Source of the DNA: a virus
Virus record (IMG/VR): IMGVR_UViG_3300035204_002396
Coordinates: 1-37,883 of that record
DNA: 37,883 bases
Strand: one strand, 5' to 3'
In this document: positions 6,036-37,883 of the stretch, piece after piece
Numbering within the stretch: the stretch's first letter is position 1
Layout of the letters: each line of letters starts with the position of its first letter
Notes under the pieces: generated by a model
What the model saw: the letters and a program-made list of their open reading frames with translations, nothing else
Told to the model about the DNA's origin: nothing
Database searches by the model: none
Made by a program: the position numbers and the translations under genes

Positions 6036-6040
6036 ACCAA

Positions 6041-14914: not shown

Positions 14915-15615
14915 TCTTCACTAATACTAATGGCAAAAGGTGTTGCTTTGTCCATATTCCCCGCACTGGCGGCACTTACATAGAGCAAGCTATTTGTAAG
15001 ACTTATAGTATCAAATATGATCGTTCTAATGTTAAGTTTCTTTTGGGCATACAGAGCCTCACTGAACTTAATAAATGGTTCATGATGCAGCATTTGACAC
15101 TTAAAGAGATTCGTCTTTTTATTGAAAATAAACTTATCAAAGAATGCGATAGTTATTTTTCTATAGTCCGTAATCCCTACGATAGATTTGTGTCTTTATT
15201 TAAATACTGGAGCAAAAATAAGGGGGAAAATGGCTTAAACGAATTTTTGAGTAAAGTAGAGGGCATGGACCTTAATTCTTACGAGCATAAAGGAATTTTT
15301 TCGCAAAAAGAACATTTTCAAGCATTAAGGCTTGAAGATTGCAAGTATCACCTGTTACCTCAATTTGTTTATTTATCCGAGAATGATGGTATAGTTACAC
15401 CGGAAGTATTTAAATACGAAGAAATGAAAAAGATTAAAAAATACAGCGAAATACAAGTTGATATAAATTTCAACAAAGAACGCGCTAAAAATGCTCGTAA
15501 AAGTAATTTAATTTTTTTAACAGAGGGGCAGAAAGAAAGAATATATTCCTTATACAAGGATGATTTTCAAAATTTTAACTATACCAAACATTTAGAGAGA
15601 GGAAGCGATTTTTAA
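14911..15615 (+). CDS. Sulfotransferase (carbohydrate type)
   Basis: 234 residues. The 5'-phosphosulfate-binding loop is CFVHIPRTGGTYIEQAI (about 12-28), matching the Sulfotransfer_2 family (heparan/chondroitin sulfotransferases). The 3'-phosphate-binding block is YFSIVRNPYDRFVSLFKYW (82-100) with Arg88 and Ser95. Later segments (LLPQFVYLSEN, VFKYEEM) also fit. It should transfer sulfate from PAPS to a sugar hydroxyl in the cytoplasm. No PAPS synthase is in the window, so the donor would come from the host. ATGA overlap before; one base between its stop and the next ATG. Confidence 0.88.
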   Translation: MIFTNTNGKRCCFVHIPRTGGTYIEQAICKTYSIKYDRSNVKFLLGIQSLTELNKWFMMQHLTLKEIRLFIENKLIKECDSYFSIVRNPYDRFVSLFKYWSKNKGENGLNEFLSKVEGMDLNSYEHKGIFSQKEHFQALRLEDCKYHLLPQFVYLSENDGIVTPEVFKYEEMKKIKKYSEIQVDINFNKERAKNARKSNLIFLTEGQKERIYSLYKDDFQNFNYTKHLERGSDF

Positions 15616-15616
15616 A

Positions 15617-16522: not shown

Positions 16523-17493
16523 AAGCCGTTATAGCTGGCTGCGGTTTAAGTGGAATAATAGCCGCTATCTTACTAAAAGAAAAAGGCTATGATGTAGAAG
16601 TATTTGATACTCGTTATCATATCGGCGGCAACTGTTATGATAAAAAAATAGAAGGGGTAATGGTTCATCAATACGGACCTCATGGTTTTCACACAAACAA
16701 CGAAAAAGTATGGAGCTTCTTAAATAGATACTCTAAATTCAACGATGTCTGCTTGGAAGTGAAAGCTAATACAAAGGAAGGGACAATATCCTTACCTTAC
16801 TCACCAGCAGTAGAAAAACAAATTGGATACAAAACTCCGGAGCAAATAAAAGATTTAATATTTAAAGATTATAGTGAAAAAATGTGGGGTATTCCTTGGG
16901 AAGAATTACCAAAATCAATAAGCTCTAGAGTACCCAATAAAAGAGATGATCCTAGCTCTTGCTTTCATCTAGATAAATATCAAGGCATACCTGTCGATGG
17001 CTATACCGTCATGTTTAATAACATGCTTGAAGGAATTAAAGTAAATTTAAATTGTGATCCTCAAGAATACAAAAAGCAAAAATGTGACTTATTGGTATAT
17101 ACTGGAAAAATTGATGAATTTTTTAATTATAAGTATGATTGGTTAGAGTATAGATCATTGAAAATACAATTTGAAACAGCGGCTAAAAGAAAAGATATAT
17201 TTCAATTAAATGAATGCAATAGTCATAACGCTTGGACTCGTAGCGTGGATCATTCTCATTGGCATAGACAAAATGTGGTTCAAACTGTTATTTCTAAAGA
17301 ATACCCTTGTGAGCACACCAAAAATAATATACCATTTTATCCTAAGCCGTTTAACGACAATAATAAGAAATACAAAAAATACAAAAAAATTGCTGATTCT
17401 TTAAATAATGTTATTTTTATTGGTAGATTAGCTACTTATAAGTATTTAGATATGGACGATGCCATAGCGCAAGTCTTTAACAAAATTAAATGA
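16519..17493 (+). CDS. glf: UDP-galactopyranose mutase
   Basis: 324 residues; FAD enzyme that converts UDP-galactopyranose to UDP-galactofuranose. FAD-binding AGCGLSG (6-12), VEVFDTRYHIGGNCYD (26-41), HQYGPHGFHTN (50-60), then DYSEKMWG with IPWEELP, and the C-terminal NVIFIGRLATYKYLDMDDAIAQ, the family's second FAD/substrate block. It is about 40-50 residues shorter than bacterial Glf, with the loss in the middle region; the main blocks are intact. Preceded by a sugar 4-epimerase, it points to galactofuranose in the product glycan. ATGA overlaps on both sides. Confidence 0.9.
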   Translation: MKAVIAGCGLSGIIAAILLKEKGYDVEVFDTRYHIGGNCYDKKIEGVMVHQYGPHGFHTNNEKVWSFLNRYSKFNDVCLEVKANTKEGTISLPYSPAVEKQIGYKTPEQIKDLIFKDYSEKMWGIPWEELPKSISSRVPNKRDDPSSCFHLDKYQGIPVDGYTVMFNNMLEGIKVNLNCDPQEYKKQKCDLLVYTGKIDEFFNYKYDWLEYRSLKIQFETAAKRKDIFQLNECNSHNAWTRSVDHSHWHRQNVVQTVISKEYPCEHTKNNIPFYPKPFNDNNKKYKKYKKIADSLNNVIFIGRLATYKYLDMDDAIAQVFNKIK

Positions 17494-18563
17494 AAAAAAT
17501 ATTAGTTACCGGAACATTGGGTCAAGACGGGGCCAATATGTGCGAGTTTTTACTGAAAGACCCCGAAAATGAAGTCTTTGGGATGATTCGCAGGGCTGCC
17601 GCGCCCAACTTCACAAATTGTAAAAATTTTTTAACCCATAATAGGTTTAATTTGGTTTATGGAGATTTAGTTGATGAAGTAAGTATTTGTAATTTAGTTA
17701 AAGAAATACAACCTGATTATTTTATTAATTTTGCGGCTAACAGCTTCGTGGGCTGTAGTTGGAAAATGCCTCTCCAAGTCTTTGATGTTAATTCCACGGG
17801 TGTATTAAGATGCTTAGAGGCTATTAGGGCTTATCAACCAACCTGTAGGTTTTACAGCGCTGGAAGTAGTGAGGAATTTGGAGATGTAGATTATTCTCCA
17901 CAAGACCTTAAACATCCTTTGAAACCCAGAAGCCCTTACGGAGCTTCTAAGTGCGCCGCTAGACATTTAGTAAAAGTCTATCGAGAATCTTATGATATGT
18001 ATGCTGTTCACGGTACTTTGTTTAATCATGAAGGGGTGAAACGTGGAGAAGAATTTGTAACTCGAAAAATTACAAAAGGAGTTGCTAGAATAAAAAAAGA
18101 AATAGAACTAAGTAAGCACGTAAACCCTATCGAACTTGGAAACATATACGCCAAAAGAGATTGGAGCGATTCAGAAGACTTCGTAGAAGGGGTATGGTTA
18201 ATGCTTAATTGCGATAAACCTAAAGATTATTTACTTGCAAGCGGAGAAACCCATACTATTAAAGAGTTTGTTGAGAGAGCTTTTTATGCAGCTAAAATAG
18301 AAGGCAATTGGTGCGAAAATGAAAATAACCCCTTAGAAACTAAATTTCACAGAAACTCTAGCTGCGGAGAAACTCTAGTAAAAATAAATTCTAAATTTTA
18401 TAGACCTAATGAAGTGCAACTGTTGTTGGGAGACCCCACGGATATAAAACTTGAATTAGGATGGAGCCCTAAAGTTTCTTTTCGTAATTTAGTCAAAAAA
18501 ATGGTAGAACATGATCTAGACGAAGTCGGAATCAAAATAGATGAAATCGGAACCGAAATTTAA
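17490..18563 (+). CDS. gmd: GDP-mannose 4,6-dehydratase
   Basis: 357 residues; converts GDP-mannose to GDP-4-keto-6-deoxymannose, precursor of GDP-fucose, GDP-rhamnose and related sugars. NADP-binding GTLGQDG (8-14), INFAANSFVGCSWKMP (79-94), SAGSSEEFGDV (123-132) with catalytic Ser and Glu, YGASK at 150-154, GTLFNHEGVKRGEEFVTRKIT and IELGNIYAKRDWSDSEDFVEG. Length and all blocks fit. Two bases differ from the usual substrate loop (FYRPNEVQLLLGDPTD present), so function is expected. The 3' end overlaps the next gene by 23 bases. Confidence 0.94.
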   Translation: MKKILVTGTLGQDGANMCEFLLKDPENEVFGMIRRAAAPNFTNCKNFLTHNRFNLVYGDLVDEVSICNLVKEIQPDYFINFAANSFVGCSWKMPLQVFDVNSTGVLRCLEAIRAYQPTCRFYSAGSSEEFGDVDYSPQDLKHPLKPRSPYGASKCAARHLVKVYRESYDMYAVHGTLFNHEGVKRGEEFVTRKITKGVARIKKEIELSKHVNPIELGNIYAKRDWSDSEDFVEGVWLMLNCDKPKDYLLASGETHTIKEFVERAFYAAKIEGNWCENENNPLETKFHRNSSCGETLVKINSKFYRPNEVQLLLGDPTDIKLELGWSPKVSFRNLVKKMVEHDLDEVGIKIDEIGTEI

Positions 18564-18975
18564 ATTAGGTAGAAAAATTAAAAGTCGCACGACCAAAAAA
18601 CAGGTGCAGCCTAAAAATAAATTTGCAGTCATAATTTGGCAATTAATAAAAGACCCCAATGACTTTTCTGCTGTAGATTGGAGCAGAGAAACTAAGGCTG
18701 CTAAAGATTTATTTAATACTTACCCCAATATTAAATTTTGGAGTCAAATTAATTTAGGATTTTATTTAAATTCTTTAAACTTTTTTAATGGGAAAGATGG
18801 TGTAAAATATCTAAGAAATGCTGTTGATGAATTTGAAAGAAATTTAAAAATAAATTTTCAACAAGCTCAAAAAGAAGAATTTAATGATAACGCTAATTTT
18901 CATAAGAATATAGATAAATCAACTAAACCCATGTCTTTAAGTTCTATCTTCAAAAATGGCAAAAAAACAAAATGA
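18541..18975 (+). CDS. Unknown basic protein overlapping gmd
   Basis: 144 residues starting at ATG 18541, 23 bases inside gmd, in another frame, and ending 20 bases inside the next gene. The first 30 residues are strongly basic (FKLGRKIKSRTTKKQVQPKNK). The core (AVIIWQLIKDPNDFSAVDW, FWSQINLGFYLNSLNFF) is aromatic and helical, with a Ser/Lys-rich tail. No Cys pairs, signal or transmembrane segment. I recognise no family. It sits between the sugar genes and the replication genes, so it could belong to either. Long overlaps at both ends and even codon use suggest it is real. Confidence 0.65.
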   Translation: MKSEPKFKLGRKIKSRTTKKQVQPKNKFAVIIWQLIKDPNDFSAVDWSRETKAAKDLFNTYPNIKFWSQINLGFYLNSLNFFNGKDGVKYLRNAVDEFERNLKINFQQAQKEEFNDNANFHKNIDKSTKPMSLSSIFKNGKKTK

Positions 18976-20119
18976 AGTAAAACTTTGTTTGTGGACTCAT
19001 GTTCAAAACGAAGCTCATATTATTGAGAAAATGCTTACTACCGCTGCGCCCTATATTGATTATTGGGTTTTAGTGGATAACGGTTCTACGGACGGCACTC
19101 AAGATATAATTAAAAAGTTTTTTGAAAAAGAAAAGATACCCGGAAAACTTTATCAAAGCGAAATTGGGTGGAAAGGGCATGGCGTTAATAGGCAGCATTC
19201 GTGGGATTTTTTAAAAAAAACAGATCATGGTTGCGATTGGATTTTAAGAATAGACGCCGACGAAGGAATTGAGGTCGCTGACGATTTTGATTGGTCTATT
19301 ATAGAAACGGCTGAAAAAGCATGGTCAGTTATTTTTCATCCGGGGGATCATATAATCCCTCGCATGTGGCTGTGGAGAGCTAATTTACCTTGGTTTTGGG
19401 CTACAGATACCGCTCATGAAACTATTCATTTACCCGATAACGAAAATCCACGCGAAGAAAATCTCCCCATGTCTTTTAAACATATCGCCGTGGGAGGGGG
19501 TAAAAGCTATGAAAATCCAATTAAATATATACAAGATGTTCTAAGATTAGAAAATCAATTACATGAAAAATTTCGCGATGGAAGCACGTTGGAGGACGAG
19601 AGATATCATTTATATTATTTAGCTATTTCTTTTAATTATTCTGGAGTAGCGGTTGGGCAAGAATGGTGTGAAAAATTATTTCCTTACGGAAGAGAGCATG
19701 TAAAAATTTTCTTAGAAAGGGGGATTTTCTACCATACTCAATTATTAGAAAGCTTTACAGATAGAGGAGAAGATTTTTGGACTTTAAAATTAAGAGCAGA
19801 ATTGTATGAACGTATTGGCGATCATGAAGCGGCTGAGAAAGACTTGTGGGCTTCTTATGAAAAAAGGCAATATAGAGGAGAGTCTATAACTCAACTATTT
19901 TGGAAGTATTGCAAAAAAAATAATTTAAAAATGGCATTTAAATGCGCTCAAATAATAAAAAACCAAAAATTTCCCATTGACTATGATCAATGGAATTTAT
20001 CTTATAGCGCTTATTACGAAAATAACTCCAAGCTTAGAGAAGCCATTAAGCAATGTTATGAAGATGTGGCTCAACAAGAGCTAAATGAAAAAGCTTTAAT
20101 CGAATCAATTAAATTATAA
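18956..20119 (+). CDS. GT2 glycosyltransferase with TPR-like C-terminus
   Basis: 387 residues. GT-A family 2 domain: LWTHVQNEAHIIEKML (12-27), VLVDNGSTDGTQDII (38-52), WILRIDADEGIEV (95-107) with DADE at 100-103. After about residue 230 the chain is helical with repeat-like Tyr/Ala spacing (LRAELYERIGDHEAAEKDLWASY, AFKCAQIIKN), typical of TPR repeats and as in other 'glycosyltransferase plus TPR' proteins. The acceptor is unknown. The ATG lies within the previous gene. Its TAA overlaps the recombinase ATG (TAATG), so the last sugar gene is joined directly to the first replication gene. Confidence 0.87.
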   Translation: MAKKQNEVKLCLWTHVQNEAHIIEKMLTTAAPYIDYWVLVDNGSTDGTQDIIKKFFEKEKIPGKLYQSEIGWKGHGVNRQHSWDFLKKTDHGCDWILRIDADEGIEVADDFDWSIIETAEKAWSVIFHPGDHIIPRMWLWRANLPWFWATDTAHETIHLPDNENPREENLPMSFKHIAVGGGKSYENPIKYIQDVLRLENQLHEKFRDGSTLEDERYHLYYLAISFNYSGVAVGQEWCEKLFPYGREHVKIFLERGIFYHTQLLESFTDRGEDFWTLKLRAELYERIGDHEAAEKDLWASYEKRQYRGESITQLFWKYCKKNNLKMAFKCAQIIKNQKFPIDYDQWNLSYSAYYENNSKLREAIKQCYEDVAQQELNEKALIESIKL

Positions 20120-23191: not shown

Positions 23192-24117
23192 TGGATGTAA
23201 AAGAAATTTTACAAAAATTAGGTTATACCAATTTGAAAGATAACGGTAAAGAATTTAGAACGAAACCGTTATACAGAGACTCCGGTAATCCTACGTGTTT
23301 GTGCGTGTATAAAGATTCTGGTTATTTTGTAGATTATGGAAGAGAGGGCGAACTTAGGGGGCCAATTGAACAATTAGTAAAGTTAACTTTGGATTTCAAT
23401 ACGCTTAAAGAAGCTCGTGAATGGCTCGGCTTAAAAGGCGACGGTACTTATAATGACGCTCGTAACACAACTCCGAAACAAGTGTCAATTTATCAAGATA
23501 AATATTTTGATGAAGAAAATTTGGATTTAATAAATAAAAATTACGCCTATTGGAACTCAAGAGGCATTTCTTCTGATACTTTAGAAAATTTTGAGTCTGG
23601 CGTAGACAATGGTGTTGAAGGGGGAAAAATGCAAAATAGATATGTTTTCCCCATCTTCTCGACGGATAAAAATTTTATAATCGGATTCTCTGGCAGAAAA
23701 CTAGAAAACGTTTCTAATCGTCCTAAATGGCTCCATAGAGGAGCTAAAAATAAATGGGTTTACCCCTCCTTTCTAAATGATTCTGTATTAAAGGAAGATC
23801 GCGAAGTTATACTTGTGGAAAGTATAGGGGATATGCTATCTTTATGGGATGCGGGCATTAAAAATTCTCTAGTTACCTTTGGAACAAGCATAAGTGATTC
23901 TTTAATTTATTATTTAATAAGTATCCGTCCCGAAAAAATACTTATTGCCTTAAATAATGATGGAGAAAATAAGGCGGGAAATAAGGGCGCAGCTAAAATA
24001 TTTAAAAATTTAAAATATTATTTTCAAGAAAAAGAATGCAAAATAGCATTACCTCCTAAAAATGATTTTAATGAGATGTCAAAATTAGAAATTTTAGAAT
24101 GGAAAAATAATGCCTGA
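23191..24117 (+). CDS. DnaG-type primase, Toprim fold
   Basis: 308 residues; makes RNA primers at the fork. The N-terminal zinc-finger-like region (RTKPLYRDSGNPTCLCVY, DSGYFVDYGREGELRGPIEQLVKLT, about 23-66) has the shape of a CHC2 domain but lacks the full set of four zinc ligands. The centre (FPIFSTDKNFIIGFSGRKL) matches the RNA-polymerase-like subdomain. The Toprim domain follows: ILVESIGDMLSLWDAG (207-222; Glu210, Asp214), GTSISD, and ALNNDGENKAGNKGA (253-267) with Asp257. It is much shorter than bacterial DnaG (about 580) and has no helicase-binding tail. The next gene's ATG lies eight bases inside. Confidence 0.85.
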   Translation: MDVKEILQKLGYTNLKDNGKEFRTKPLYRDSGNPTCLCVYKDSGYFVDYGREGELRGPIEQLVKLTLDFNTLKEAREWLGLKGDGTYNDARNTTPKQVSIYQDKYFDEENLDLINKNYAYWNSRGISSDTLENFESGVDNGVEGGKMQNRYVFPIFSTDKNFIIGFSGRKLENVSNRPKWLHRGAKNKWVYPSFLNDSVLKEDREVILVESIGDMLSLWDAGIKNSLVTFGTSISDSLIYYLISIRPEKILIALNNDGENKAGNKGAAKIFKNLKYYFQEKECKIALPPKNDFNEMSKLEILEWKNNA

Positions 24118-25126
24118 AGAAAGTATTTTATCCGCTTCGAGAATCAATTGCTACGAAACTTGTTCGTGGAAATTCTGGTGTACCTATACATTAAAACTTC
24201 CAAGAGTGAAAAACGATGGAAATGTAAGGGGTAATGCGTGCCACTTAGCTTTGGAATGTTTACTTGACCCAAGGAGAAGTAAATACGTAACTAAACTTAA
24301 AAAAACAAAAACCATCACCTCCATCCCCTCTATCTCTAAACTAGTTAAAGACTATCTCTCCAAAAATGGTTTTTATAGCGAAGAAAATTTTGAACTTTGT
24401 GATAAGTGGATTTGTTTCGCTTTAACCTTAAATTTCAAGGGTGGCAAAGGCGCTAAAATTGACAAGCCTGAAGAAAAGTTTTTTCTAGATACTACTAAAA
24501 ATGAAAATGGTCCAAAATATAAATTAACTGGATTTATAGATAAGCCTATACAATACCCCAGCCAAGGCAAAGTAAAAATTGTAGACTATAAAACTAATAA
24601 AGATAAATATACAGAGAGTGAAATTGAAAGCAATACTCAAGCAATGTGCTACATCTTGGCAGCAAGACAGGTGTGGCCCGATTTAAAAGACGTATCTGTA
24701 GAATTTCAATTTCTTAAGTTCGACGAAGACCCGTTGATGACAGTTAAATTTGATCAAGATCAATTAGAGGGCTATGAGTATTATTTGGAATATGTTTATA
24801 ATAAAGCAAACGCTTTTACCAGAGAAGATGCCGTAGCGGATATGGCGATAAAAAAACCTTTTCCTAAAGATGGAAGCTTCAGTGGTCCATTAAGTTGCGG
24901 TTTTGCAGATTACCCCGGACATCTCAAAAAAAATGGTTTACCAAGATGGTTTTGCGAACATAAATTCCCTTTTGAATATTATGCTTTGCTCAACGAAAAA
25001 GGGGATGTTGTATCTACTTCAAAAAACAAAAATGACTTGATTCCAGAGAAAAATCAAAAAGTCATAAAAAAACAATATGAAGGCTGTCCTGCTCATTGTG
25101 AAAAGGATAAAGAATTCCCGATTTAA
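24110..25126 (+). CDS. RecB/Cas4-like PD-(D/E)XK nuclease
   Basis: 338 residues. ILSASRINCYETCSWKFW (6-23) with GNACHLALE (41-49) opens the fold. Catalytic residues are His45, Asp144 (GFIDKP), Asp159-Tyr160-Lys161 (KIVDYKTNK), then Gln177 and Tyr181 (NTQAMCYILAA), the RecB QxxxY motif. Cysteines at 14/18/24 and in the C-terminus (GPLSCGFAD, RWFCEH, GCPAHC) could hold a 4Fe-4S cluster as in AddB/Cas4-type nucleases, but the spacing is irregular. It probably resects DNA ends for the recombinase. Last gene of the 8317 unit; the next promoter begins two bases beyond its stop codon. Confidence 0.88.
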   Translation: MPEESILSASRINCYETCSWKFWCTYTLKLPRVKNDGNVRGNACHLALECLLDPRRSKYVTKLKKTKTITSIPSISKLVKDYLSKNGFYSEENFELCDKWICFALTLNFKGGKGAKIDKPEEKFFLDTTKNENGPKYKLTGFIDKPIQYPSQGKVKIVDYKTNKDKYTESEIESNTQAMCYILAARQVWPDLKDVSVEFQFLKFDEDPLMTVKFDQDQLEGYEYYLEYVYNKANAFTREDAVADMAIKKPFPKDGSFSGPLSCGFADYPGHLKKNGLPRWFCEHKFPFEYYALLNEKGDVVSTSKNKNDLIPEKNQKVIKKQYEGCPAHCEKDKEFPI

Positions 25127-25142
25127 ATTGACTTGATTTAAA
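25120..25142 (+). repeat. Direct repeat flanking the -35 box
   Basis: GATTTAAA occurs at 25120-25127 and again at 25135-25142, on either side of TTGACTT (25128-25134). The spacing of the copies is 15 bases. It could be an operator pair or arise by chance in AT-rich DNA. Confidence 0.3.
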
Positions 25143-25156
25143 AAAATATTTATAAA
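25128..25156 (+). promoter_or_regulatory. Strong promoter with predicted +1 at the ATG 25163
   Basis: TTGACT (25128-25133), exactly 17 bases, TATAAA (25151-25156), then six bases to ATG 25163. Both boxes match five of six consensus positions. The predicted +1 is the A of the start codon, so the polymerase mRNA would be leaderless. Confidence 0.7.
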
Positions 25157-25162
25157 TTAAAT

Positions 25163-25924
25163 ATGGACTTAGTTCCTCTTTTTAAATCTCATTATAGTAT
25201 TGGAAGGTCTATTTTAAACCTTAAGTCTCCCGATGACGTTTCAGAGGATGGGGCAGACTCTATAATTGATATTTGCGTCAAAAATGATCTCGAATCTTTT
25301 TTTCTGGTAGATGATAGTATGTCTGGTTTTTTAGAGGCTTATTCTAACGCCCAAGCTCATAAATTAAAATTTATATTTGGCTTAAGAATCTCTGTATGTA
25401 ATGATTTAAACAGGAAAGATCAAGAAAGCTTAAAAGAAGAGTGCAAATATGTTATTTTTGCTAGAAACGTTAGTGGATACGAAAGATTAATGAAAATATC
25501 TTCTCAAGCAGCGAAGGAGGGCTTTTATTATCAACCTCGTACAGACTTTAAGCAGTTGGATAAACTTTGGGATAATGAAGATTTACGTTTAAGCGTGCCG
25601 TTTTACGATTCCTTTATTTATAAAAATCGCTTACGTGGCTCTTCTTGCTCTTTACCTCCGAAAAGTTATGAATTAGATTTTTTTATTGAAAATAATAATT
25701 TACCATTCGATGATCTATTGGCTTCAAGAATCAGGGAGTATTCTGAAAATATAATCAATACGCAAAGTATTTATTATAAAGATAAATCCCACTTTAAATC
25801 ATATTTAACTTTTAGAGCAATCGATAAAAGAACCACTCTAAGTAAGCCCAACTTAGACCACATGGGAAGCAATGAGTTTTGTTTCGAAAGCTGGAAAGAA
25901 AAAAATGAAAAAAAAGCTTCTTAG
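25163..25924 (+). CDS. dnaE: DNA polymerase III alpha, N-terminal PHP piece
   Basis: 253 residues. It corresponds to roughly the first 270-280 residues of DnaE: VPLFKSHYSIGRSIL (4-18), KFIFGLRISVC, CKYVIFARNVSGYERLMKISSQA, FYYQPRTDFKQLDKLW, and near the end LSKPNLDHMGSNEFCF, which matches the stretch just before the palm in intact DnaE. The usual metal-binding start (HxHSxYS) reads LFKSHYS, so two of the histidines are gone and PHP catalysis is unlikely. The polymerase part is a separate gene 1.5 kb downstream. A probable proofreading exonuclease begins inside its 3' end. Confidence 0.85.
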   Translation: MDLVPLFKSHYSIGRSILNLKSPDDVSEDGADSIIDICVKNDLESFFLVDDSMSGFLEAYSNAQAHKLKFIFGLRISVCNDLNRKDQESLKEECKYVIFARNVSGYERLMKISSQAAKEGFYYQPRTDFKQLDKLWDNEDLRLSVPFYDSFIYKNRLRGSSCSLPPKSYELDFFIENNNLPFDDLLASRIREYSENIINTQSIYYKDKSHFKSYLTFRAIDKRTTLSKPNLDHMGSNEFCFESWKEKNEKKAS

Positions 25925-26543
25925 ATACGAAAAAAATAAAACCTTTGTCTTTATTGATTGCGAGACCTTAAACTTATGTTTGAATTATTGCCATAACTTA
26001 CCTTGGCAAATAGCTATGATTAAAGTCAAAGGAGATAAAATTATAGACTCAAAAGACTTTTATGTAAAATGGCAAACTAAGCTTAAAATAACTGAAGAAG
26101 CAGCAAGGATTACTAGATACAGTCAAGCTACAGTAGATAAAAAAGGTATTGCTCCTGAGAAAATTTACCCTACGATAAAGCAATGGTTAGATGATGCCGA
26201 TTATATCGTTGGACATAATATTTTAGGTTTTGATATTTATCTCATAAAGGGCTTATATGAACACATGGGGGATAGTTACAAGCATTTAACTCACAAAATA
26301 ATTGATACCTATGCTATAGCTAAAGGGATACGAAGCGAAAGATATTACGATAGTAAAACTGATTTTCTTGAGTATCAATATCAAATTACATCACAAATTA
26401 TAAAAGGAATAAAAACCAACTTAACTGCGGTGGGTAAATACTATGATATTGAACATGATTACGCTAACTTGCATAATGCATTAGTTGATTTGGAGTTAAA
26501 TGTAAAAGTCTGGAATAAATTAAAATGGGAAATTGATATATGA
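25905..26543 (+). CDS. DEDDh 3'-5' exonuclease (DnaQ-like proofreading subunit)
   Basis: 212 residues from ATG 25905, which has GGAAAG six bases upstream; an in-frame ATG at 25872 would add 11 residues. Catalytic residues are all visible: Asp18 and Glu20 (FIDCETL), Asp110 (GHNILGFDIYL), His190 and Asp195 (LHNALVD). It also has the ITGHNI-like VGHN motif of DnaQ. It is located between the two polymerase pieces and should proofread for the polymerase, replacing the inactive PHP. No clamp-binding tail is evident. The start lies 20 bases inside the PHP gene; ATGA overlap with the next gene. Confidence 0.88.
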   Translation: MKKKLLRYEKNKTFVFIDCETLNLCLNYCHNLPWQIAMIKVKGDKIIDSKDFYVKWQTKLKITEEAARITRYSQATVDKKGIAPEKIYPTIKQWLDDADYIVGHNILGFDIYLIKGLYEHMGDSYKHLTHKIIDTYAIAKGIRSERYYDSKTDFLEYQYQITSQIIKGIKTNLTAVGKYYDIEHDYANLHNALVDLELNVKVWNKLKWEIDI

Positions 26544-27394
26544 AATATGAAGATGGTCGCCTTCACATCTTTACTCCTTCGTGTTGGTGGGGAGATCAAA
26601 TATTAAATTTTTATGCTATTAAATATTGTTTGGAAAAATATGAAAAATCAAAAGTAATTATTCATGCCAGTAAGAGAGCTTACAACCCTCATTTAAAAAA
26701 AATTATACCAATGGACCAAGGCATTTTAAAATTTTGGTCAACATTTAACTTTGTAGAAGGCATTTTATTTGACTGCGATCCAGAAACACTTTATGAAGAT
26801 GCGGAAGAAAGTAATTATAAATGGTTTCCATTTTTAAATGAACAAGTGCCCGATGATTACAATGTTGATTTATCAAAAGAAATAAATTTTTCTTTATTCC
26901 CTAAAAGATTCAAAAAATTTGAAGATTCTAAGATAGCGGTTTTCCAGCCGATTTCTTTAAAAAATAAACCCGATAACTTAAAAAAAGATTTTTTATGCTC
27001 ATGGGATCAAAGTTTTCAAGAATTAATTAAAAAAAAGTATTCTATATATCTTATTGGATCAGTTGAAGATTTAAATCAATGTGAAATATTTTACCCAGAG
27101 TTATTAAAAAATAATAATATAATTAATTTAATGGGAAAAATAAATATGTTCGAAGCCATTGATTTAGTAATGAATCACGCCTCATTCGTGCTATCTTGTT
27201 GTAGCTGGAGTGCATGGTATGGCATCGCTTCTCGCACTCCTACAGCTTTCGCGGCTGGCCCTATACTAGAGAGCGGCCATGATAATAAATACGTAAAACT
27301 AATCAAAAATAAAGATATTTTTTATATGGACTATTCTTCAAAAAAAGAAGAAGCTGATTCAAATATCCAAGAATGGATAATGTTAAACGCATGA
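26540..27394 (+). CDS. GT9-like (heptosyltransferase-type) glycosyltransferase inside the polymerase locus
   Basis: 284 residues. N-terminal HIFTPSCWWGDQILNFYAIKYCLEKY parallels the GGLGDxxL...LK opening of ADP-heptose transferases. The donor lobe has SKIAVFQPISLK (131-142), YSIYLIGSVEDLNQCEIF, IINLMGKINMFEAIDLVMNHASFVLSC in pieces, then CSWSAWYGIASRTPTAFAAGP, the usual donor-binding Ser/Gly region. The product is a cytoplasmic sugar transferase of unknown specificity. It has no link to replication, yet sits between the exonuclease and the polymerase core with overlaps on both sides, so it looks like an insertion. Confidence 0.75.
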   Translation: MKYEDGRLHIFTPSCWWGDQILNFYAIKYCLEKYEKSKVIIHASKRAYNPHLKKIIPMDQGILKFWSTFNFVEGILFDCDPETLYEDAEESNYKWFPFLNEQVPDDYNVDLSKEINFSLFPKRFKKFEDSKIAVFQPISLKNKPDNLKKDFLCSWDQSFQELIKKKYSIYLIGSVEDLNQCEIFYPELLKNNNIINLMGKINMFEAIDLVMNHASFVLSCCSWSAWYGIASRTPTAFAAGPILESGHDNKYVKLIKNKDIFYMDYSSKKEEADSNIQEWIMLNA

Positions 27395-29985
27395 GCGCTT
27401 ACGCCGACCAATTTGAGACTCTAGACCTTAACCTTCATGGGGTTAGACTGCCTAGTTTTACTATAGATAATAAATATAAACATGAGCTTAAAGTAAGCGA
27501 AGATACAAATAATTTTGAATTCTTAAAAGCACTCTGCTTGCATGGATTAAAAAAGAAAAAAATAAAATCAAAAGACTATACAAAAAGATTAAATTACGAA
27601 CTTGAAACTTTAGAAGAATTAGGGTTTACCGATTATATCTTATTGGTATGGGATGTAATCAATTTTTGTAATGAAAACAACATTGCATATAATTTGGGAA
27701 GAGGAAGCGCTGCTGGTTGTTTAGTATTATTTCTTATCGGGGTTACCGGAATTGACCCATTAAAATATGAACTTTTCTTCGAAAGATTCGTATCTAAGGT
27801 TAGAGCCAAAAAGAAAATTGTAAAAGGCATAACTTATCTCGATGGATCATTAATGGTTGATGTGGATATAGATATCTGTTATTATAATCGCCAAAACGTT
27901 ATAAATTATTTAAATACTAAGTTCACGGGTAAGACTAGCAAAATTCTAACTTTAAATACCTTAAATACTAGATTATTAATAAAAGAATGTGGTAAAATAA
28001 TAGGGGAACATAGCGAGCAAGAAATGAATAAAGTTTCCGCTATGGTTCCAAAGTTATTTGGACAAGTAAGGGACTTGCAGGAGACTTATGAAGAAGTTGA
28101 AGAATTTAAAAAATGGTGTGATGAGAACCCAGAGGTTTATAAAACAGCTTTAAAATTAAGAAGCTTAAATAAAAACAAAGGCATTCACCCTTCGGCAATA
28201 GCCATTTCCTACGGTCCTCTTAATAAGAGTTGCCCCACTGAATTATCATCTGACAAGAAAAACTCTGTATGTTCTTATGATATGAATTGGGTTTCCTTAT
28301 CTAATGTAAAGCTAGATGTTTTAGGTCTGAGGTGTGTTTCTGTTGTAGATGATGTCTGCAAACAACTTGGGATTAAACTTCACGATATCGATTTAGATAA
28401 TCCTTTTATCTATCAGCAACTCCAAAATTTAGAGAATCCTCATGGATTATTTCAAATTGAAGCAGAAACTAATTTTAAAGTATGCCAAAAGGTAAACCCC
28501 AAGAATCTAGAGCAATTAAGCGGCGTTTTAGCCTTGGCTCGCCCCGGAGCTCTATCTTATGTTGATCAATACGCAAATTATACCAATAATGGTACATACG
28601 ATGTGATCCATCCTTTCTTCGATGATATTTTATCAAGTACAGGAGGCGTTGCCTTATACCAAGAACAATTAATGAAAATGGCTCATAAAGTAGGTTTTAC
28701 TTTGGATGAAGCTGAAATTTTACGTCGCATCGTTGGTAAGAAAAAGGTGTCCGAAGTAAGAAAATGGAAGAAAAAAATTAAAGATAAAATAGCGGAAAAT
28801 AAATTAGATAAAGAAGTTAGCGATGTACTTTGGAAAGTTTTAGAAGATTCGGCTAATTATTCTTTTAACAAGTCTCACTCTTTGGCTTACGCAGCTTTAT
28901 CTGCAATAACTATTTATCTTAAGTTTAAATATCCCAAGGAATTTTTTCTAGCTTTATTAAAGATGAGTAGGCACGAACCTGAATCTATAAAAGAAATTTC
29001 TAAAATTCATAAAGAAATGAACTCTCTTAACGTAGAGTTGCTTTCTCCTCATTTGATTAAATCTCAAATGGATTTTTGCATCGAGGGAGATAATATAAGG
29101 TTTGGCTTGTTATCGATTAAAAAAATTGCTGATAAATCAATTGAAAAATTAAATAAATTTAAAGATAACTATTCTACAAAATTTGAAGTTTTTGAAGCTG
29201 CTAATAAATCAGGATTAGGAATAGGCATGTTGTCAGCCTTAATACAAGCGGGAGCTTTCGAGGGTTTTTCTCAGTCTCGTACTAGGGTAGTTTATGAAGC
29301 TCAAATTTGGGGCATTCTAACCACTAGAGAAAAAGTACTAGTCCACGAATTGGGTGAAGAATTTGATTATGACTTAATAAAAATAATTAAACATCTTTAT
29401 ACCACTTTAGATAAAACTCATGCAGACCCTAAAAAACATAAATTGTTTATTAAAGAAAGTCGGCAAAAAACAATTAAAAAGAAAGCTGAAAATTTTGGAA
29501 AAATATATCAACAAAATAAGAAGTCTGCATCTTTTGCGAATTGGTATTACGAAAAGAAATTATTAGGTTATACTTCTGGAATTACTTTGTTAGACATATG
29601 GAGTGAATATACCAGTGGCTTATCATCCATCTCAACAGCGCAAAACTCTCCCATAAATAGTCGCATAAAAATAATTGGATTTATCGAAGGAAAACCTTAC
29701 AGAAGCGTCTCTAGAAAAGGAAGCTCATACTTAAGATTCCAACTCTCAGACGAAGACAAAGAGGTTAAAATCATGATCTTTAATGACAAGATGTGGAATT
29801 GCATTGGTAAAGATGGCTCTAGGGTTCCCAAAGAAGGAGAGATAGTCATCGTTAAAGGTGTCGTAAAAGATGAAGTAATTTTCGCTGACGAAATTTTCCC
29901 CCAAAGGAAGAATAGCATATATACAAGCTTGGCTGAGTTAAAAGAAAAAAATCCGACCTTGACAAAAGACCAAGATGTTCTATAA
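27391..29985 (+). CDS. dnaE: DNA polymerase III alpha, catalytic piece (palm to OB fold)
   Basis: 864 residues from ATG 27391 (ATGA overlap with the previous gene); an in-frame ATG at 27373 would add six. Palm: GFTDYILLVWDVINF (78-92), GRGSAAG (103-109), ERF then DVDID (157-161) with catalytic Asp157 and Asp159; third Asp309 in KLDVLGL. Further blocks: GLFQIEA, LALARPGA, ALYQEQLMKMAHKVGFTLDEAEILRR in pieces, NKSHSLAYAALSA. Helix-hairpin-helix region near FGLLSIKKIADKSIEKL and an OB domain near the end (IGFIEGKPYRSV, SSYLRFQLSDEDKEVKIMIF in pieces). An insertion of about 15 residues lies between ERF and DVDID. With the PHP piece it forms one normal DnaE. Confidence 0.95.
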   Translation: MSAYADQFETLDLNLHGVRLPSFTIDNKYKHELKVSEDTNNFEFLKALCLHGLKKKKIKSKDYTKRLNYELETLEELGFTDYILLVWDVINFCNENNIAYNLGRGSAAGCLVLFLIGVTGIDPLKYELFFERFVSKVRAKKKIVKGITYLDGSLMVDVDIDICYYNRQNVINYLNTKFTGKTSKILTLNTLNTRLLIKECGKIIGEHSEQEMNKVSAMVPKLFGQVRDLQETYEEVEEFKKWCDENPEVYKTALKLRSLNKNKGIHPSAIAISYGPLNKSCPTELSSDKKNSVCSYDMNWVSLSNVKLDVLGLRCVSVVDDVCKQLGIKLHDIDLDNPFIYQQLQNLENPHGLFQIEAETNFKVCQKVNPKNLEQLSGVLALARPGALSYVDQYANYTNNGTYDVIHPFFDDILSSTGGVALYQEQLMKMAHKVGFTLDEAEILRRIVGKKKVSEVRKWKKKIKDKIAENKLDKEVSDVLWKVLEDSANYSFNKSHSLAYAALSAITIYLKFKYPKEFFLALLKMSRHEPESIKEISKIHKEMNSLNVELLSPHLIKSQMDFCIEGDNIRFGLLSIKKIADKSIEKLNKFKDNYSTKFEVFEAANKSGLGIGMLSALIQAGAFEGFSQSRTRVVYEAQIWGILTTREKVLVHELGEEFDYDLIKIIKHLYTTLDKTHADPKKHKLFIKESRQKTIKKKAENFGKIYQQNKKSASFANWYYEKKLLGYTSGITLLDIWSEYTSGLSSISTAQNSPINSRIKIIGFIEGKPYRSVSRKGSSYLRFQLSDEDKEVKIMIFNDKMWNCIGKDGSRVPKEGEIVIVKGVVKDEVIFADEIFPQRKNSIYTSLAELKEKNPTLTKDQDVL

Positions 29986-29986
29986 T
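29959..29986 (+). promoter_or_regulatory. Perfect consensus promoter with predicted +1 at the ATG 29994
   Basis: TTGACA (29959-29964), 16 bases, TATAAT (29981-29986), then seven bases to ATG 29994. Both hexamers are perfect. It lies inside the 3' end of the polymerase gene. The predicted +1 is on or one base before the start codon. No Shine-Dalgarno sequence is present. Confidence 0.75.
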
Positions 29987-29993
29987 TAAGACA

Positions 29994-30608
29994 ATGAATG
30001 TACAATTTTATAAGCCAAATGCAAAAGGCACGGGTACGGCATGTTCGTTCTGGCGCGATGAAAGAGATAACAGTTTTTGGGCGAGTATGATTAGACAAGA
30101 CTCGGCAACTGCAAAGACTTTTGGGAAAAATAAAGATAATCCTAAAAAAAATGTAAAAACAAAATTCCAAGCAGTCGAAGTCGCGGGTATCATAGACGCG
30201 ATTGAAAGAAACGCAGAATACAAAGGCTATCATAAAAGCAGGAATCAAGAAATTAGTTTTTTCTTTAAGCCTTATTTTAAAGGTGAAGAAACAGAAGAAT
30301 TAGGCGAAGTGGCAGGAGACGTTGAGGTTAGCAATAAAAAGAGTAAGTTAAATGGAAATCTAAACGGAAAAATTTCTAAAACGAAACCTACTCAAGTAGG
30401 CTTTTCTTTTTCAATTAATCGTACCGACATAGAAGACACTACTGATAAACAGTCTTATTTAATTGGTTTTTATTATCCCGAAGCAACTCTATTAAAAAAT
30501 TATCTACAAACCATTCTTCAAGATAGCTTTAGGGTTCCGTTTAACAAAGGGTCTTCAGAAAAGAAACCTACGCAATCCAAAAACACCAAAGACGAGTACG
30601 ATTTTTAA
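29994..30608 (+). CDS. Probable single-stranded DNA-binding protein
   Basis: 204 residues. MNVQFYKPNAKGTGTACSFW, KNKDNPKKNVKTKFQAVEVAGIIDAIERN in pieces, and QVGFSFSINR with SYLIGFYYPEATLLKNYLQTIL define a phage group I know as uncharacterised, with a layout like PC4/Whirly ssDNA-binding folds (beta-sheet plus long helix). The C-terminal region is Lys/Ser/Thr-rich and ends in an acidic-aromatic DEYDF, as SSB proteins do. A perfect promoter and a place right after the polymerase suit an abundant SSB. No other SSB is seen in the window. The function is inference. Confidence 0.65.
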   Translation: MNVQFYKPNAKGTGTACSFWRDERDNSFWASMIRQDSATAKTFGKNKDNPKKNVKTKFQAVEVAGIIDAIERNAEYKGYHKSRNQEISFFFKPYFKGEETEELGEVAGDVEVSNKKSKLNGNLNGKISKTKPTQVGFSFSINRTDIEDTTDKQSYLIGFYYPEATLLKNYLQTILQDSFRVPFNKGSSEKKPTQSKNTKDEYDF

Positions 30609-30616
30609 TATTAAAG

Positions 30617-32500
30617 GTGAGAAAGAAAAAAATATTTTTCCAAAGCGATTTTTCGCTTATTAAAACAGGATTTGCTAGAAGCGCCAAAGCGCTTTTGTCT
30701 TACCTCTACAAAACAGGCAAATATGATATCGTTCATTACTGCGTAGGAATGGATGAAAAATCTGCCGACTTATTACGTACCCCTTGGAAATCTATTGGAT
30801 GTTTACCTAATGCGCCCGACAAAAGAAACCAAATAAACAGAGACCCCTCTTTAGCCAAAATCGCAAATTATGGAGCTTATTACCTTGACGAAGCGATTGC
30901 TAAGGAAAAACCAGATGTTTATATAGCGGCCCAAGATATATGGGGAGTAGATTTCGCAGTAAAAAAACATTGGTTTAGTAAAATTACTTCGGTTATTTGG
31001 ACGACATTAGATTCTTTACCCCTTTTACCTTCGGCTTTAACTATAGCTCCTAAAGTAAAAAATTATTGGATGTGGAGCGATTTTGCTACTAAAGAAATGC
31101 ATCGACTTGGCCATAAACAAGTCAAAACTATGCATGGGATTATTGATACTCATAATTTCCACAAATTAAGCCCGACAAAACGTGACGAACTCAGAGCTAA
31201 TCACGGTATAGAAAAAGATGCTTTTATTATCGGGTATGTTTTTAGAAATCAAATGAGAAAATCCGTACCTAATCTCATTGAAGGATTTAAACTTTTTAAA
31301 ACGAATAATCCAAACATTAAGGACGCTAAATTATTATTGCATACTGATTTTAGAGAAGGCTGGGACATTAAAAGATTAGCGGAAGAACATAATGTAGATT
31401 GGAGTGATATATTAACACCTCAAATATGTGGAAAATGTTTAAATTATCAAGTCAAGCCTTTCGAAAAACCCGATTCTAATTGCTCCTTTTGCAAAGCTCA
31501 AAATACTGTTAATCCCACGGGCGTAGGCTTGGGAGTTACTGAGCCTCAATTAAATGAAATTTATAATTTGATGGATGTTTATTGTCATCCTTTCACTTCG
31601 GGCGGTCAAGAAATTCCAGTTCAAGAAGCTAAACTCGCTGAGTTAATCACATTAGTTACTAACTATAGCTGTGGTGAAGAAATGTGCGGTAAAACGGCGA
31701 ATTCTTTACATTTGAACTGGAGCGAATATAGAGAGTTCGGGACAAACTTTATAAAAGCCTCTACGGACCCTGTGCATATAGCTACTCAACTTTTTAAAGT
31801 CTATTCTATGGACGATAAACAGAAAAATAAAATGGGGGAAGCGGCTAGAAATTGGGCGCTTCAAAATTTTTCTGTAGAAAGTGTGGGTAAGAAAATAGAA
31901 AGCTTTTTAGATTCCGCGAAGTTTATAGATGAAAAAAAATATCCGAAGGTGGAAAAAAAAGACCCTAAAGTAGAAATACCGCAAATAGAAAATAATGGAG
32001 AGTGGATTAAAACTTTATATTCTGAAATATTAAAAACCGAAGTGGATGATCTAGATGATGGGTTTAAATATTGGATGACCGAACTTGACAAAGGGGCTTC
32101 TAGAGAAAAAATAGAAGAGTATTTTAGGGGGGTTGCTACAAAATCTAACGCAGAAGAGCAAGCTAAAGACATAAAAAATCAATTAGATAAAAATACCAAA
32201 AGAATTTTATACGTAATTCCTGAAAATGAGTTAGATATTTTTATTTCTTCGAGCTTATTTGAATCAATTAAAGAGTTATATCCCGAACACGATCTCTATG
32301 TGGCCACTAATAGCTCTTATGCCCCCCTTCTTTACGCTAATGATTATGTTCACAAAGTCTTACCCATTAATGAAGAGTTCAATAATCTTCAAAATTTCAA
32401 AGACAGCGAAGGGAACGATTTGTTCGAGACAATCTACACTCCCTCTTTAAATAAAAGTAATTACCAACAAATAACTAAAACTAATATTTGTTACAAATGA
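30617..32500 (+). CDS. GT4 glycosyltransferase with zinc ribbon, DUF4214 and half of a GT9 fold
   Basis: 627 residues from GTG 30617, preceded by AAAG. Domain order: GT4-like N-lobe (FFQSDFSLIKTGFARSAKAL, 7-26); a donor lobe from about 200 (GYVFRNQMRKSVPNLIEGF) interrupted by a zinc-ribbon-like CGKC at 271-274 and CSFC at 289-292; GGQEIPVQEAKLAELI around 329-344. After a Lys/Pro linker comes a DUF4214-like unit (WIKTLYSEILKTEVD... YWMTELDKGASREKIEEYF, 463-504), seen in surface proteins. Residues from 528 (RILYVIPENELDIFISSSLFES) match the N-lobe of GT9 transferases. The C-lobe is in the next gene. A three-part sugar transferase of unknown acceptor. Confidence 0.8.
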   Translation: MRKKKIFFQSDFSLIKTGFARSAKALLSYLYKTGKYDIVHYCVGMDEKSADLLRTPWKSIGCLPNAPDKRNQINRDPSLAKIANYGAYYLDEAIAKEKPDVYIAAQDIWGVDFAVKKHWFSKITSVIWTTLDSLPLLPSALTIAPKVKNYWMWSDFATKEMHRLGHKQVKTMHGIIDTHNFHKLSPTKRDELRANHGIEKDAFIIGYVFRNQMRKSVPNLIEGFKLFKTNNPNIKDAKLLLHTDFREGWDIKRLAEEHNVDWSDILTPQICGKCLNYQVKPFEKPDSNCSFCKAQNTVNPTGVGLGVTEPQLNEIYNLMDVYCHPFTSGGQEIPVQEAKLAELITLVTNYSCGEEMCGKTANSLHLNWSEYREFGTNFIKASTDPVHIATQLFKVYSMDDKQKNKMGEAARNWALQNFSVESVGKKIESFLDSAKFIDEKKYPKVEKKDPKVEIPQIENNGEWIKTLYSEILKTEVDDLDDGFKYWMTELDKGASREKIEEYFRGVATKSNAEEQAKDIKNQLDKNTKRILYVIPENELDIFISSSLFESIKELYPEHDLYVATNSSYAPLLYANDYVHKVLPINEEFNNLQNFKDSEGNDLFETIYTPSLNKSNYQQITKTNICYK

Positions 32501-34977: not shown

Positions 34978-34988
34978 TATTTTATTTA
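34971..34988. repeat. Perfect AT-only inverted repeat over two convergent stop codons
   Basis: TAAATAA (34971-34977), TATT, TTATTTA (34982-34988). It contains the stop of each convergent gene. It has no GC, so it is a poor intrinsic terminator despite its position. Confidence 0.4.
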
Positions 34989-37883
34989 GCTTGCCAAGTT
35001 GACCAGAACGCTTCGTTTCTTCTTGCTTCTTCCTCGGAGAATGTAGCGAATCTTTTACCACTTCTACCTTTTCTAATTCCCGATAACTTTATAACTATTT
35101 CTTTTGGCGTTTGAACGGCGTCTATTGTAATTTCTATTTTATCATTTATTACTCTTATGCCGCACATGCATGGATGAGAAGTCGTATGACTTACTGGAAC
35201 TATTGAATTTTTGTCACATACGAAAATAAATTCGGGATCAATATCTAAAATTACTTTTTTATCTCCATCTTTAGGATTAACTCTTATAACGTCTTCAAAA
35301 CGAGTCTCAGGCATCTCTACGCACGCCAAAGCTACGTATTCTTTGGGAGTTGAACCCGGAACTATAGCATATTTATCACCGTGAGAACCATGAGCGCCTT
35401 GATCTCCTTGGGCTCCACCCGTATCGCCTTGAGCACCCGCAGCGCCTTGAGCACCGCTTCCGATAGCTCCTTGATTGCCTTGCTCACCCGCATCGCCTTG
35501 ATCGCCTTGATTACCTCGATCACCTTGCTCACCCGCAGCACCTTGCTCACCCGCATCGCCTTGATCGCCTTGATCGCCTTGATCACCTTGCCATCCTTGT
35601 CTGCCTTGATCACCTTGCTCACCCGCATCGCCTTGATCGCCTTGATCGCCTTGATCGCCTTGCCATCCTTGTCTGCCTTGATCACCTTGATCGCCTTGAT
35701 CGCCTTGATCGCCTTGGAATCCTTGGTAACCTCTATATCCTTTATCGCCTTGATCGCCTTGATCGCCTTGATCGCCTTGGAATCCTTGGTAACCTCTATC
35801 GCCTTGATCGCCTTGCCATCCTTGGTAACCGCTACCGCCTTGATCACCTTGATCACCTTTATCACCTTGGCAAATACGTACAGTATTAGTATCATCGCAT
35901 GTGTAACCACCTACACTACACTCTGTTGCGGCATCAAGAGTGTTAGTAGCATAGACTCTTCCCAGTATGGTCTGCTCGCCCTCGGGGTCCGTACATACAC
36001 ATTCGTAACAAGTTAAAGCATCTGTACCTTGGTCACCCTGATATCCTTGTCTGCCTTGATCGCCTTGCCATCCTTGTCTGCCTTGATCACCTTGAGCACC
36101 CGCAGCACCTTGAGCACCCGCATCGCCTTGAGCACCCGCATCGCCTTGGTAACCTCTATCGCCTTGATCGCCTTGATTGCCTTGATCGCCCGCAGCGCCT
36201 TGATCGCCTTGCCATCCTTGGTAACCTCTATCGCCTTGATCGCCATCTGGGTGACCTTGAACTCCTTGTGGTCCTATATCGCCTTGATTGCCTTGATTGC
36301 CTTGGTAACCTCTATCGCCTTGATTGCCTTGATCGCCTTGGAATCCTTGATAACCTCTCCCTTGGTCGCCTTGATTGCCTTGATTGCCTTGATCGCCTTG
36401 CCATCCTTGGTAACCTCTATCGCCTTGATTGCCTTGATCGCCTTGGAATCCTTGGTAACCTCTCCCTTGGTCGCCTTGATTGCCTTGATCGCCTTGGAAT
36501 CCTTGGTAACCTCTATCGCCTTGATTGCCTTGATCGCCTTGGAATCCTTGGTAACCTCTCCCTTGCTTACCTTGCCATCCTTGATAACCTCTATCGCCTT
36601 GATTGCCTTGATCGCCTTGCCATCCTTGGAATCCTATGCGTCCTTGGTCACCTTGCTTGCCTTGCCATCCTTGCTCGCCTTGCCATCCTTGATTTCCTTG
36701 CTTGCCTTGCCATCCTTGATTTCCTTGGTTGCCTTGCCATCCTTGATTTCCTTGCTTGCCTTGCCATCCTTGATTTCCTTGCTTGCCTTGGAATCCTTGA
36801 TTACCTTGGAATCCTTGATTTCCTTGCTTGCCTTGCCATCCTTGATTTCCTTGCTTGCCTTGGAATCCTTGATAACCTTGATTTCCTTGGTAGCCTTGTT
36901 CTCCGGTTGGTCCTTGGAGGCATAAAGCACCATTCGCTACATGAGGACCGAAACTATTCCAACCACCTACCGCTTCACATTCATTCGCAGCCGCACCTGA
37001 TGACCCGAAAACAAAATAAAACGTTCCATCATCGGGATAAATTGGACCATCCATGCACTCCCAGCATTGAGGAGTCTCCCCATCAACTCCCTGAGCCCCT
37101 TGATATCCTTGATCACCTTGATAACCTTGATAACCTCTGTCGCCTTGATAACCCCTGAAGCCTCTATCGCCTGTATCGCCTTTTTCGCCTTTAGCGCCTT
37201 GATACCCTCTATCGCCTTGATCGCCTTGATCGCCTTTTTCGCCTTGATATCCTCTATTGCCTTGAGCGCCTTGGGGGCCATTAGGGTCTCCTTGGACGCC
37301 TTGGATACCTTGAATACCTTGAATACCTTGGACGCCTTGATTACCTTGGTTGCCTTGATTGCCTTGGAATCCTTGGTAGCCTCGTTTACCTTGAAGCCCT
37401 TGTTTACCTTGTTTACCTTGCCACCCTTGGTTGCCTTGCTTACCTTGCCATCCTTGGCGTCCTATACGTCCTTGGTCACCTTGTTTGCCTTGGAATCCTT
37501 GGAATCCTTGGTTGCCTTGAGGGCCATCGAATCCTTGGTATCCTCTCCCTTGAACCCCTTGGAACCCTTGATATCCTCTATCGCCTTGATTACCTTGAAA
37601 TCCTTGGTATCCTTGATTGCCTTGATTGCCTTGATCGCCTTGATCGCCTTGGAATCCTTGGAATCCTTGGTATCCTCTATCGCCTTGAAATCCTTGATAC
37701 CCTCTCCCTTGAACCCCTTGGAATCCTTGGTAACCTTGGTCTCCTTGATCGCCTTGAAATCCTTGGTATCCTTGATTACCTTGCTTACCTTGATCTCCTT
37801 GAAATCCTTGGTAACCTTGGTCTCCTTGATCGCCTTGCCATCCTTGGAATCCTTGTCTACCTTGCTTACCTTGGTATCCTTGA
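34982..37883 (-). CDS. Long collagen-like (Gly-X-Gln) surface protein, 5'-truncated
   Basis: At least 966 residues; the frame stays open to the window end, so the start lies beyond 37883. The ATG at 37054 is internal. N to C: collagen-like segment (37883-37079), Cys mini-domain (37078-36920), second collagen-like segment (36919-36026), second Cys mini-domain (36022-35870), third segment (35869 to about 35385), and a globular C-terminal domain of about 130 residues (PGSTPKEYVALACVEMPETR, IDPEFIFVCDKNSIVP, CMCGIRVINDK, IVIKLSGIRKGRSG). Gln fills nearly every Y position; X is Asp, Asn, Lys, Arg or aromatic (GWQ, GYQ, GFQ); Pro is scarce. Likely a phage fibre or capsid decoration. It is on the opposite strand to nearly everything else. 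Confidence 0.85.
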   Translation of the reverse strand, partial: QGYQGKQGRQGFQGWQGDQGDQGYQGFQGDQGKQGNQGYQGFQGDQGDQGYQGFQGVQGRGYQGFQGDRGYQGFQGFQGDQGDQGNQGNQGYQGFQGNQGDRGYQGFQGVQGRGYQGFDGPQGNQGFQGFQGKQGDQGRIGRQGWQGKQGNQGWQGKQGKQGLQGKRGYQGFQGNQGNQGNQGVQGIQGIQGIQGVQGDPNGPQGAQGNRGYQGEKGDQGDQGDRGYQGAKGEKGDTGDRGFRGYQGDRGYQGYQGDQGYQGAQGVDGETPQCWECMDGPIYPDDGTFYFVFGSSGAAANECEAVGGWNSFGPHVANGALCLQGPTGEQGYQGNQGYQGFQGKQGNQGWQGKQGNQGFQGNQGFQGKQGNQGWQGKQGNQGWQGNQGNQGWQGKQGNQGWQGEQGWQGKQGDQGRIGFQGWQGDQGNQGDRGYQGWQGKQGRGYQGFQGDQGNQGDRGYQGFQGDQGNQGDQGRGYQGFQGDQGNQGDRGYQGWQGDQGNQGNQGDQGRGYQGFQGDQGNQGDRGYQGNQGNQGDIGPQGVQGHPDGDQGDRGYQGWQGDQGAAGDQGNQGDQGDRGYQGDAGAQGDAGAQGAAGAQGDQGRQGWQGDQGRQGYQGDQGTDALTCYECVCTDPEGEQTILGRVYATNTLDAATECSVGGYTCDDTNTVRICQGDKGDQGDQGGSGYQGWQGDQGDRGYQGFQGDQGDQGDQGDKGYRGYQGFQGDQGDQGDQGDQGRQGWQGDQGDQGDQGDAGEQGDQGRQGWQGDQGDQGDQGDAGEQGAAGEQGDRGNQGDQGDAGEQGNQGAIGSGAQGAAGAQGDTGGAQGDQGAHGSHGDKYAIVPGSTPKEYVALACVEMPETRFEDVIRVNPKDGDKKVILDIDPEFIFVCDKNSIVPVSHTTSHPCMCGIRVINDKIEITIDAVQTPKEIVIKLSGIRKGRSGKRFATFSEEEARRNEAFWSTWQAK
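35385..37883 (-). repeat. Nine-base tandem repeat array coding Gly-X-Gln
   Basis: On the plus strand the unit reads xCC-TTG-xxx, on the coding strand CAA-GGx. Units group into longer modules such as GYQGFQGDQGNQGD, repeated with small changes, which suggests duplication by slippage. The array is broken only by the two Cys domains and a few short interruptions. It produces long Leu-rich open frames on the plus strand that are not genes. Confidence 0.85.

Follow-up and report, generated by a model that had tools for sequence, protein, structure and literature searches.

A phage DNA polymerase III alpha encoded by separate PHP and catalytic genes with an exonuclease gene between them

Members of the C family of DNA polymerases have been described as holding the PHP, palm, thumb and fingers domains in a single polypeptide (PMC3666897). 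Here, we analyzed a stretch of viral DNA of 37,883 nucleotides (nt), positions 1 to 37,883 of IMG/VR record IMGVR_UViG_3300035204_002396 (hereafter the window), in which the PHP domain and the catalytic part of DnaE (DNA polymerase III alpha) are encoded by two genes, with genes for a DEDDh exonuclease and a protein resembling glycosyltransferase family GT9 located between them. No description of such a PHP/palm split in phages was found in searches of an open-access library, and a phage clade with a separate PHP departs from the one-chain description, in which PHP is always attached.

The closest described systems each share part of this arrangement. DnaE of bacteria and other phages (such as E. 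coli, 2hnh; T. aquaticus, 2hpi; phrog_405) has the same domains and gene order, the same palm fold with invariant Asp residues, and an OB-fold after the polymerase domains, whereas the split form consists of two polypeptides and lacks the tau-binding C-terminal domain. The alpha-epsilon core of E. coli also combines a dead PHP domain with an exonuclease whose DEDDh site is intact; in the phages, however, PHP is a protein of its own, the exonuclease lacks the tail of epsilon, and binding between the two is a prediction. In PolC, exonuclease sequence is likewise located between the PHP start and the palm, but it lies inside PHP within one chain that carries an N-terminal OB-fold, whereas the phage exonuclease is a separate gene following a complete PHP, and the OB-fold is C-terminal. 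Phage replicative polymerases in two genes are represented by gene 43 (B-family polymerase) of Aeromonas phage 25, whose two products co-purify and are active, and by other T4-like splits (PMC2988022). These belong to another family, have another break and contain a homing endonuclease or untranslated insert (PMC2988022), whereas the phage DnaE split is stable, clade-wide and holds a functionally related gene. Finally, cyanobacterial DnaE, a precedent as cited in PMC3919608, is also encoded in two genes but uses split inteins; the phage split has no intein sequence and no room for one.

The two polymerase genes of the window

An earlier note, made from the sequence alone, had described four tightly overlapping genes at this locus, and all four are present. 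Their coordinates in the window are as follows (aa, amino acids; ORF, open reading frame).

25163..25924, + strand: PHP gene, encoding the N-terminal PHP domain of DnaE as a protein of its own (253 aa) with a degenerate metal site (Pfam, AlphaFold2 model, structure alignment)
25905..25924, + strand: PHP/exonuclease overlap, 20 nt (sequence; an overlap is found here in most tight relatives)
25905..26543, + strand: predicted DEDDh 3'-5' exonuclease gene, 212 aa, corrected start, listed ORF from 25872 (Pfam, PHROG, motif)
26540..27394, + strand: GT9-like gene, variable insert, probably outside the polymerase (weak Pfam match, rare among arrangements)
27391..27394, + strand: ATGA overlap of the GT9 stop with the palm start (sequence; -4 exonuclease/palm spacing in 25 of 38 tight relatives)
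27391..29985, + strand: catalytic gene, palm/thumb/fingers, HhH and OB-fold, 864 aa, corrected start, listed ORF from 27373 (Pfam, invariant Asp, structure alignment)

The most likely start of the exonuclease is Met12 of the listed ORF, at 25905, where its homologues begin. The palm gene likely starts at 27391 (Met7 of the listed ORF), near which its homologues begin, and this start yields the ATGA overlap with the preceding stop; the GT9 gene has ATGA overlaps with both neighbours.

The PHP gene product matches Pfam PHP (E 6.8e-13), and the catalytic product matches DNA_pol3_alpha (3.1e-55), fingers (7.5e-31) and HhH (1.1e-12), the last two above the Pfam cut-off, with a weak OB match (3.3e-4, below the cut-off). 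Fingers and HhH follow the palm, and the OB region lies on the C-terminal side. Within phrog_405 (DNA polymerase; 1190 positions), the PHP gene covers positions 63-256 and the palm gene 312-1078. The AlphaFold2 model of the PHP piece (predicted local distance difference test, pLDDT, 88.7; predicted template modelling score, pTM, 0.87) aligns over its full length, residues 1-253, to E. coli alpha 4-252 (Z 22.5) and to T. aquaticus alpha 5-264 (Z 23.3), and was also aligned to the M. tuberculosis protein (9-277). The model of the catalytic piece has a pLDDT of 76.4, parts of the palm being of low confidence; from residue 14 onward, it aligns to E. coli alpha from 271-272 through the OB region to ~1073 (Z 29-37), and its OB region aligns to OB-folds with Z ~11-12. 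Four catalytic-type Asp residues (D157, D159, D161 and D309) are invariant in 28 homologues of this piece. On the basis of the palm Asp residues, the order of fingers, HhH and OB, and the DnaE-type PHP, the window polymerase is predicted to be a C-family enzyme of the DnaE type.

In alignments with fused homologues, the PHP piece stops just past a segment whose sequence in most members is SxEFCxESW. The catalytic piece opens inside the next linker helix. The C-terminal segment of PHP, which leads toward the palm, contains residues that are invariant across the PHP family (M234, S236, F239 and E242). The break falls in the PHP-palm linker, at ~residues 253-271 of E. coli alpha, the domain border proposed in the earlier note. 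Its view that the pieces jointly make up a complete DnaE also holds in the structural models, in which they correspond to alpha 4-252 and 271 onward; together, they are predicted to form one complete alpha except for the ~20-residue linker and the C-terminal tau-binding domain.

Distribution and origin of the split

The catalytic piece, used to scan viral contigs, matched at 64 loci. PHP and palm occupy separate frames at 60 of them, and the other four (L025, L059, L063 and L065) end before PHP would be expected. Further scans (PHP family, GTDB genomes and the deep relative L067) resulted in 132 loci with all three genes, or 92 distinct arrangements after removal of duplicates. Every one of the 92 has the order PHP-exonuclease-palm as separate genes with the same junction position, none is fused, and PHP is kept wherever the locus has enough sequence. 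In each of 12 related contigs (84-178 kb), there is exactly one match to the palm and one to PHP, in frames of 855-889 and 250-276 aa, respectively. An intact DnaE elsewhere in the genome, which would have argued against a split, was found neither in the window contig, which has a single palm match, nor in the sequenced parts of these 12 contigs.

As for the unsplit ancestor that the earlier note suggested looking for, neither the viral contigs nor the scan of GTDB genomes yielded an unsplit close relative. The only fused homologues found are distant, at ~27-32% identity (L069, L071 and following, L223-L230). Among INPHARED phages, no palm match exceeded ~32% identity and there was no exonuclease match; PHP matches had 25-39% identity, and those fetched were fused proteins. 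In a tree of the palm region, 33 split rows are separated from 17 fused rows by a single branch (support of 100 in the Shimodaira-Hasegawa-like approximate likelihood ratio test, SH-aLRT), so that split versus fused requires one change compared to 14.3 in shuffles. The joining branches are long, which leaves the nearest fused sister unsure. The split members that branch deepest, L066 and L067/L222, share 44-47% identity with the family and already have the three genes side by side. Since all fused homologues are distant and lie outside one well-supported split clade, the sequence comparisons indicate that the split is old and arose once. The phages that carry it form a large, uncultured group. 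Annotation pipelines can overlook this group, as can surveys, when they merge fragmented dnaE genes or treat palms without PHP as partial.

Several individual loci deserve mention. Loss of the palm in L159 and L165 was considered and rejected, as L159 is cut at the contig end and the palm of L165 lies ~8 kb away. In Bacillus phage KLEB27-3 and Rossellomorea phage phiT1 (L226 and L227), DnaE is broken mid-palm, with an HNH gene in the gap in KLEB27-3; given the other position, these were rejected as instances of the same event and are probably breaks of the intron type, unlike the PHP/palm split. The DnaE of L112, labelled Vibrio cholerae 35D, groups with Arthrobacter (zero-length branch beside L110), and this assembly is probably mislabelled or contaminated. 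Contigs binned as Lokiarchaeota and Woesebacteria (L068 and L070) carry the split phage polymerase set and are likely phage contigs mis-binned into metagenome-assembled genomes.

A predicted three-protein replicase core

The metal motifs of PHP have been lost in the family alignment: HxH is replaced, DH reads DD or ED, and GxE reads GLR. Such loss also occurs in many true DnaE proteins and is not decisive for DnaE-type membership. The exonuclease matches RNase_T (2e-19; Pfam) and phrog_192, 'DNA polymerase exonuclease subunit' (1.1e-26), and its DEDDh residues (D18, E20, D110, H190 and D195) are kept in at least 97% of 47 homologues. PHP is under strong purifying selection, with a ratio of nonsynonymous to synonymous substitution rates (dN/dS) of 0.03-0.08 in pairs with unsaturated dS. 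In bacteria, dead PHP domains accompany active DnaQ (PMC12926913); in E. coli, Pol III has a major structural element in its dead PHP, which supports stability and activity, and epsilon binding involves PHP (PMC3666897). Considering the dead PHP, the intact exonuclease, the selection on PHP and the E. coli precedent, the most economical reading is a replicase core of three separate proteins, namely dead PHP, the DEDDh exonuclease and a palm/fingers/HhH/OB subunit, to which we assign a probability of roughly 0.8. Translational coupling would lead to joint synthesis of the three proteins, which would then assemble post-translationally, with PHP packing against the palm as it does in one-chain DnaE and holding the exonuclease beside the polymerase site, much as the PHP of E. 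coli does with epsilon.

Three features weigh against such a core. The linker is shortened by ~15-20 residues relative to fused DnaE in the alignment, and PHP evolves faster than the palm (for example, 76% versus 85% identity between L002 and L044). In addition, the exonuclease ends ~17 residues past the last catalytic Asp and has no C-terminal PHP-binding tail, whereas E. coli epsilon extends ~75 residues beyond that Asp and binds PHP through its C-terminal tail; PHP docking of a tail-less exonuclease would therefore need another surface. More tentatively, the core may be an obligate three-subunit form of the C family, in which the separate PHP docks the tail-less exonuclease and loading or release of the PHP-exonuclease pair switches proofreading or polymerase activity. 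Why even dead PHP domains never get lost is a standing question, and a PHP that is a separate protein can be added or omitted, allowing a direct question on its role in polymerisation, stability and proofreading.

In contig G013 (57 kb; L165/L232), the PHP gene, one insert and the exonuclease gene come first, and three opposite-strand genes (126, 1848 and 696 aa) separate them from a small acidic protein, the palm and a gene resembling single-stranded DNA-binding protein; the palm is ~8 kb away on the strand of PHP. Here, PHP stays with the exonuclease, apart from the palm, which together with the faster evolution of PHP would suit a PHP protein that remains outside the polymerase fold as a separate adaptor (for example, in exonuclease docking or regulation) while the palm works without it. 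We consider such an adaptor unlikely, given that PHP has the full-length DnaE-type fold (Z 22-23) including the conserved C-terminal segment toward the palm, and that it has been retained so consistently.

It is very improbable that, instead of assembling as separate proteins, the pieces are rejoined through splicing of the RNA, inteins that splice in trans or a programmed frameshift. Rejoining does have precedents among split genes, such as those of the cyanobacterial DnaE split inteins, but there is no Rfam match in 24000-30700, and no homing endonuclease or intron was detected at the split in the window (Pfam; Rfam over the same interval). The absence of intein motifs reported in the earlier note is borne out by the alignments, with no extra sequence on the C-terminus of PHP or the N-terminus of the palm: PHP ends a few residues past its conserved motif and the palm starts ~15 residues ahead of its own, so that intein halves would not fit. 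Moreover, tight members overlap by a few nt, and the ~8 kb of opposite-strand genes between exonuclease and palm in G013 argues, barring misassembly, against splicing, read-through or frameshifting as an easy way to join the pieces.

Genes at the two borders

All 92 arrangements have the exonuclease between PHP and palm, and in 17 of them, including the deepest branches L066 and L067/L222, no other gene accompanies it. Insert-free arrangements mostly have overlaps of 1-8 nt, and the commonest exonuclease/palm spacing is -4, an ATGA overlap (25 of 38 tight cases). A GT9-type gene is present in only six of the 92, the window among them, and the Glyco_transf_9 match of the window insert is below threshold (E 0.0059, 16.4 bits; cut-off 22). 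The earlier note had proposed that exonuclease and GT9 were inserted together into an intact dnaE as a two-gene cassette. Although the window and five relatives hold both genes between the pieces, this proposal is contradicted by the two frequencies and by the deepest branches, which carry the exonuclease alone, near or overlapping both neighbours; we regard it as highly unlikely. Given its presence in all arrangements including these branches, the exonuclease is a fixed member, and GT9 a late, optional passenger. No close fused sister was found, and the exonuclease gene itself may once have split dnaE by insertion at the linker.

The two gene borders would later have become harmless insertion sites for sugar genes, homing-type endonucleases and others, of which the window GT9 is one example. 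Both borders (L002-L222) are insertion hot spots, with inserts at the PHP-exonuclease border in 59 of the 92 arrangements and at the exonuclease-palm border in 53, and each recurrent insert type occurs at one border only. A ~168-aa protein (25 cases; the scanned representative matches neither Pfam nor PHROG) and a cupin (19 cases) are confined to the former, and an 86-aa acidic protein (43/92; representative L052:7685-8032, no Pfam or PHROG match) to the latter, where its gene immediately precedes that of the palm. An acidic protein similar to the 86-aa one adjoins the palm in L232 even with PHP ~8 kb distant, and this ~86-aa protein is a possible polymerase partner. Other inserts include GT17, GT2, LAGLIDADG and HNH endonucleases, and enzymes resembling inosine monophosphate dehydrogenase (IMPDH) and GlmS; LAGLIDADG or HNH genes are found only in scattered relatives (L215 and L201) and in none of the tight deep branches. 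Database dnaE fragments are sometimes errors, and such cases were joined in PMC3919608. Here, 92 distinct arrangements drawn from numerous metagenomes share one break, and purifying selection is strong, so that an artefact of sequencing or assembly, or a pseudogene in decay, is extremely improbable.

Elsewhere in the window, the large and small subunits of ribonucleotide reductase are encoded at 3588-7060, and a big sugar cluster occupies 8317-20119 (GT25, GT10 fucosyltransferase, GDP-mannose dehydratase, epimerases, UDP-galactopyranose mutase, sulfotransferase and GT2). On the minus strand, a long frame at 34982-37882, which is open at the contig end, contains ten collagen-repeat stretches (Pfam Collagen, 9.4e-106) and is perhaps a tail fibre gene.

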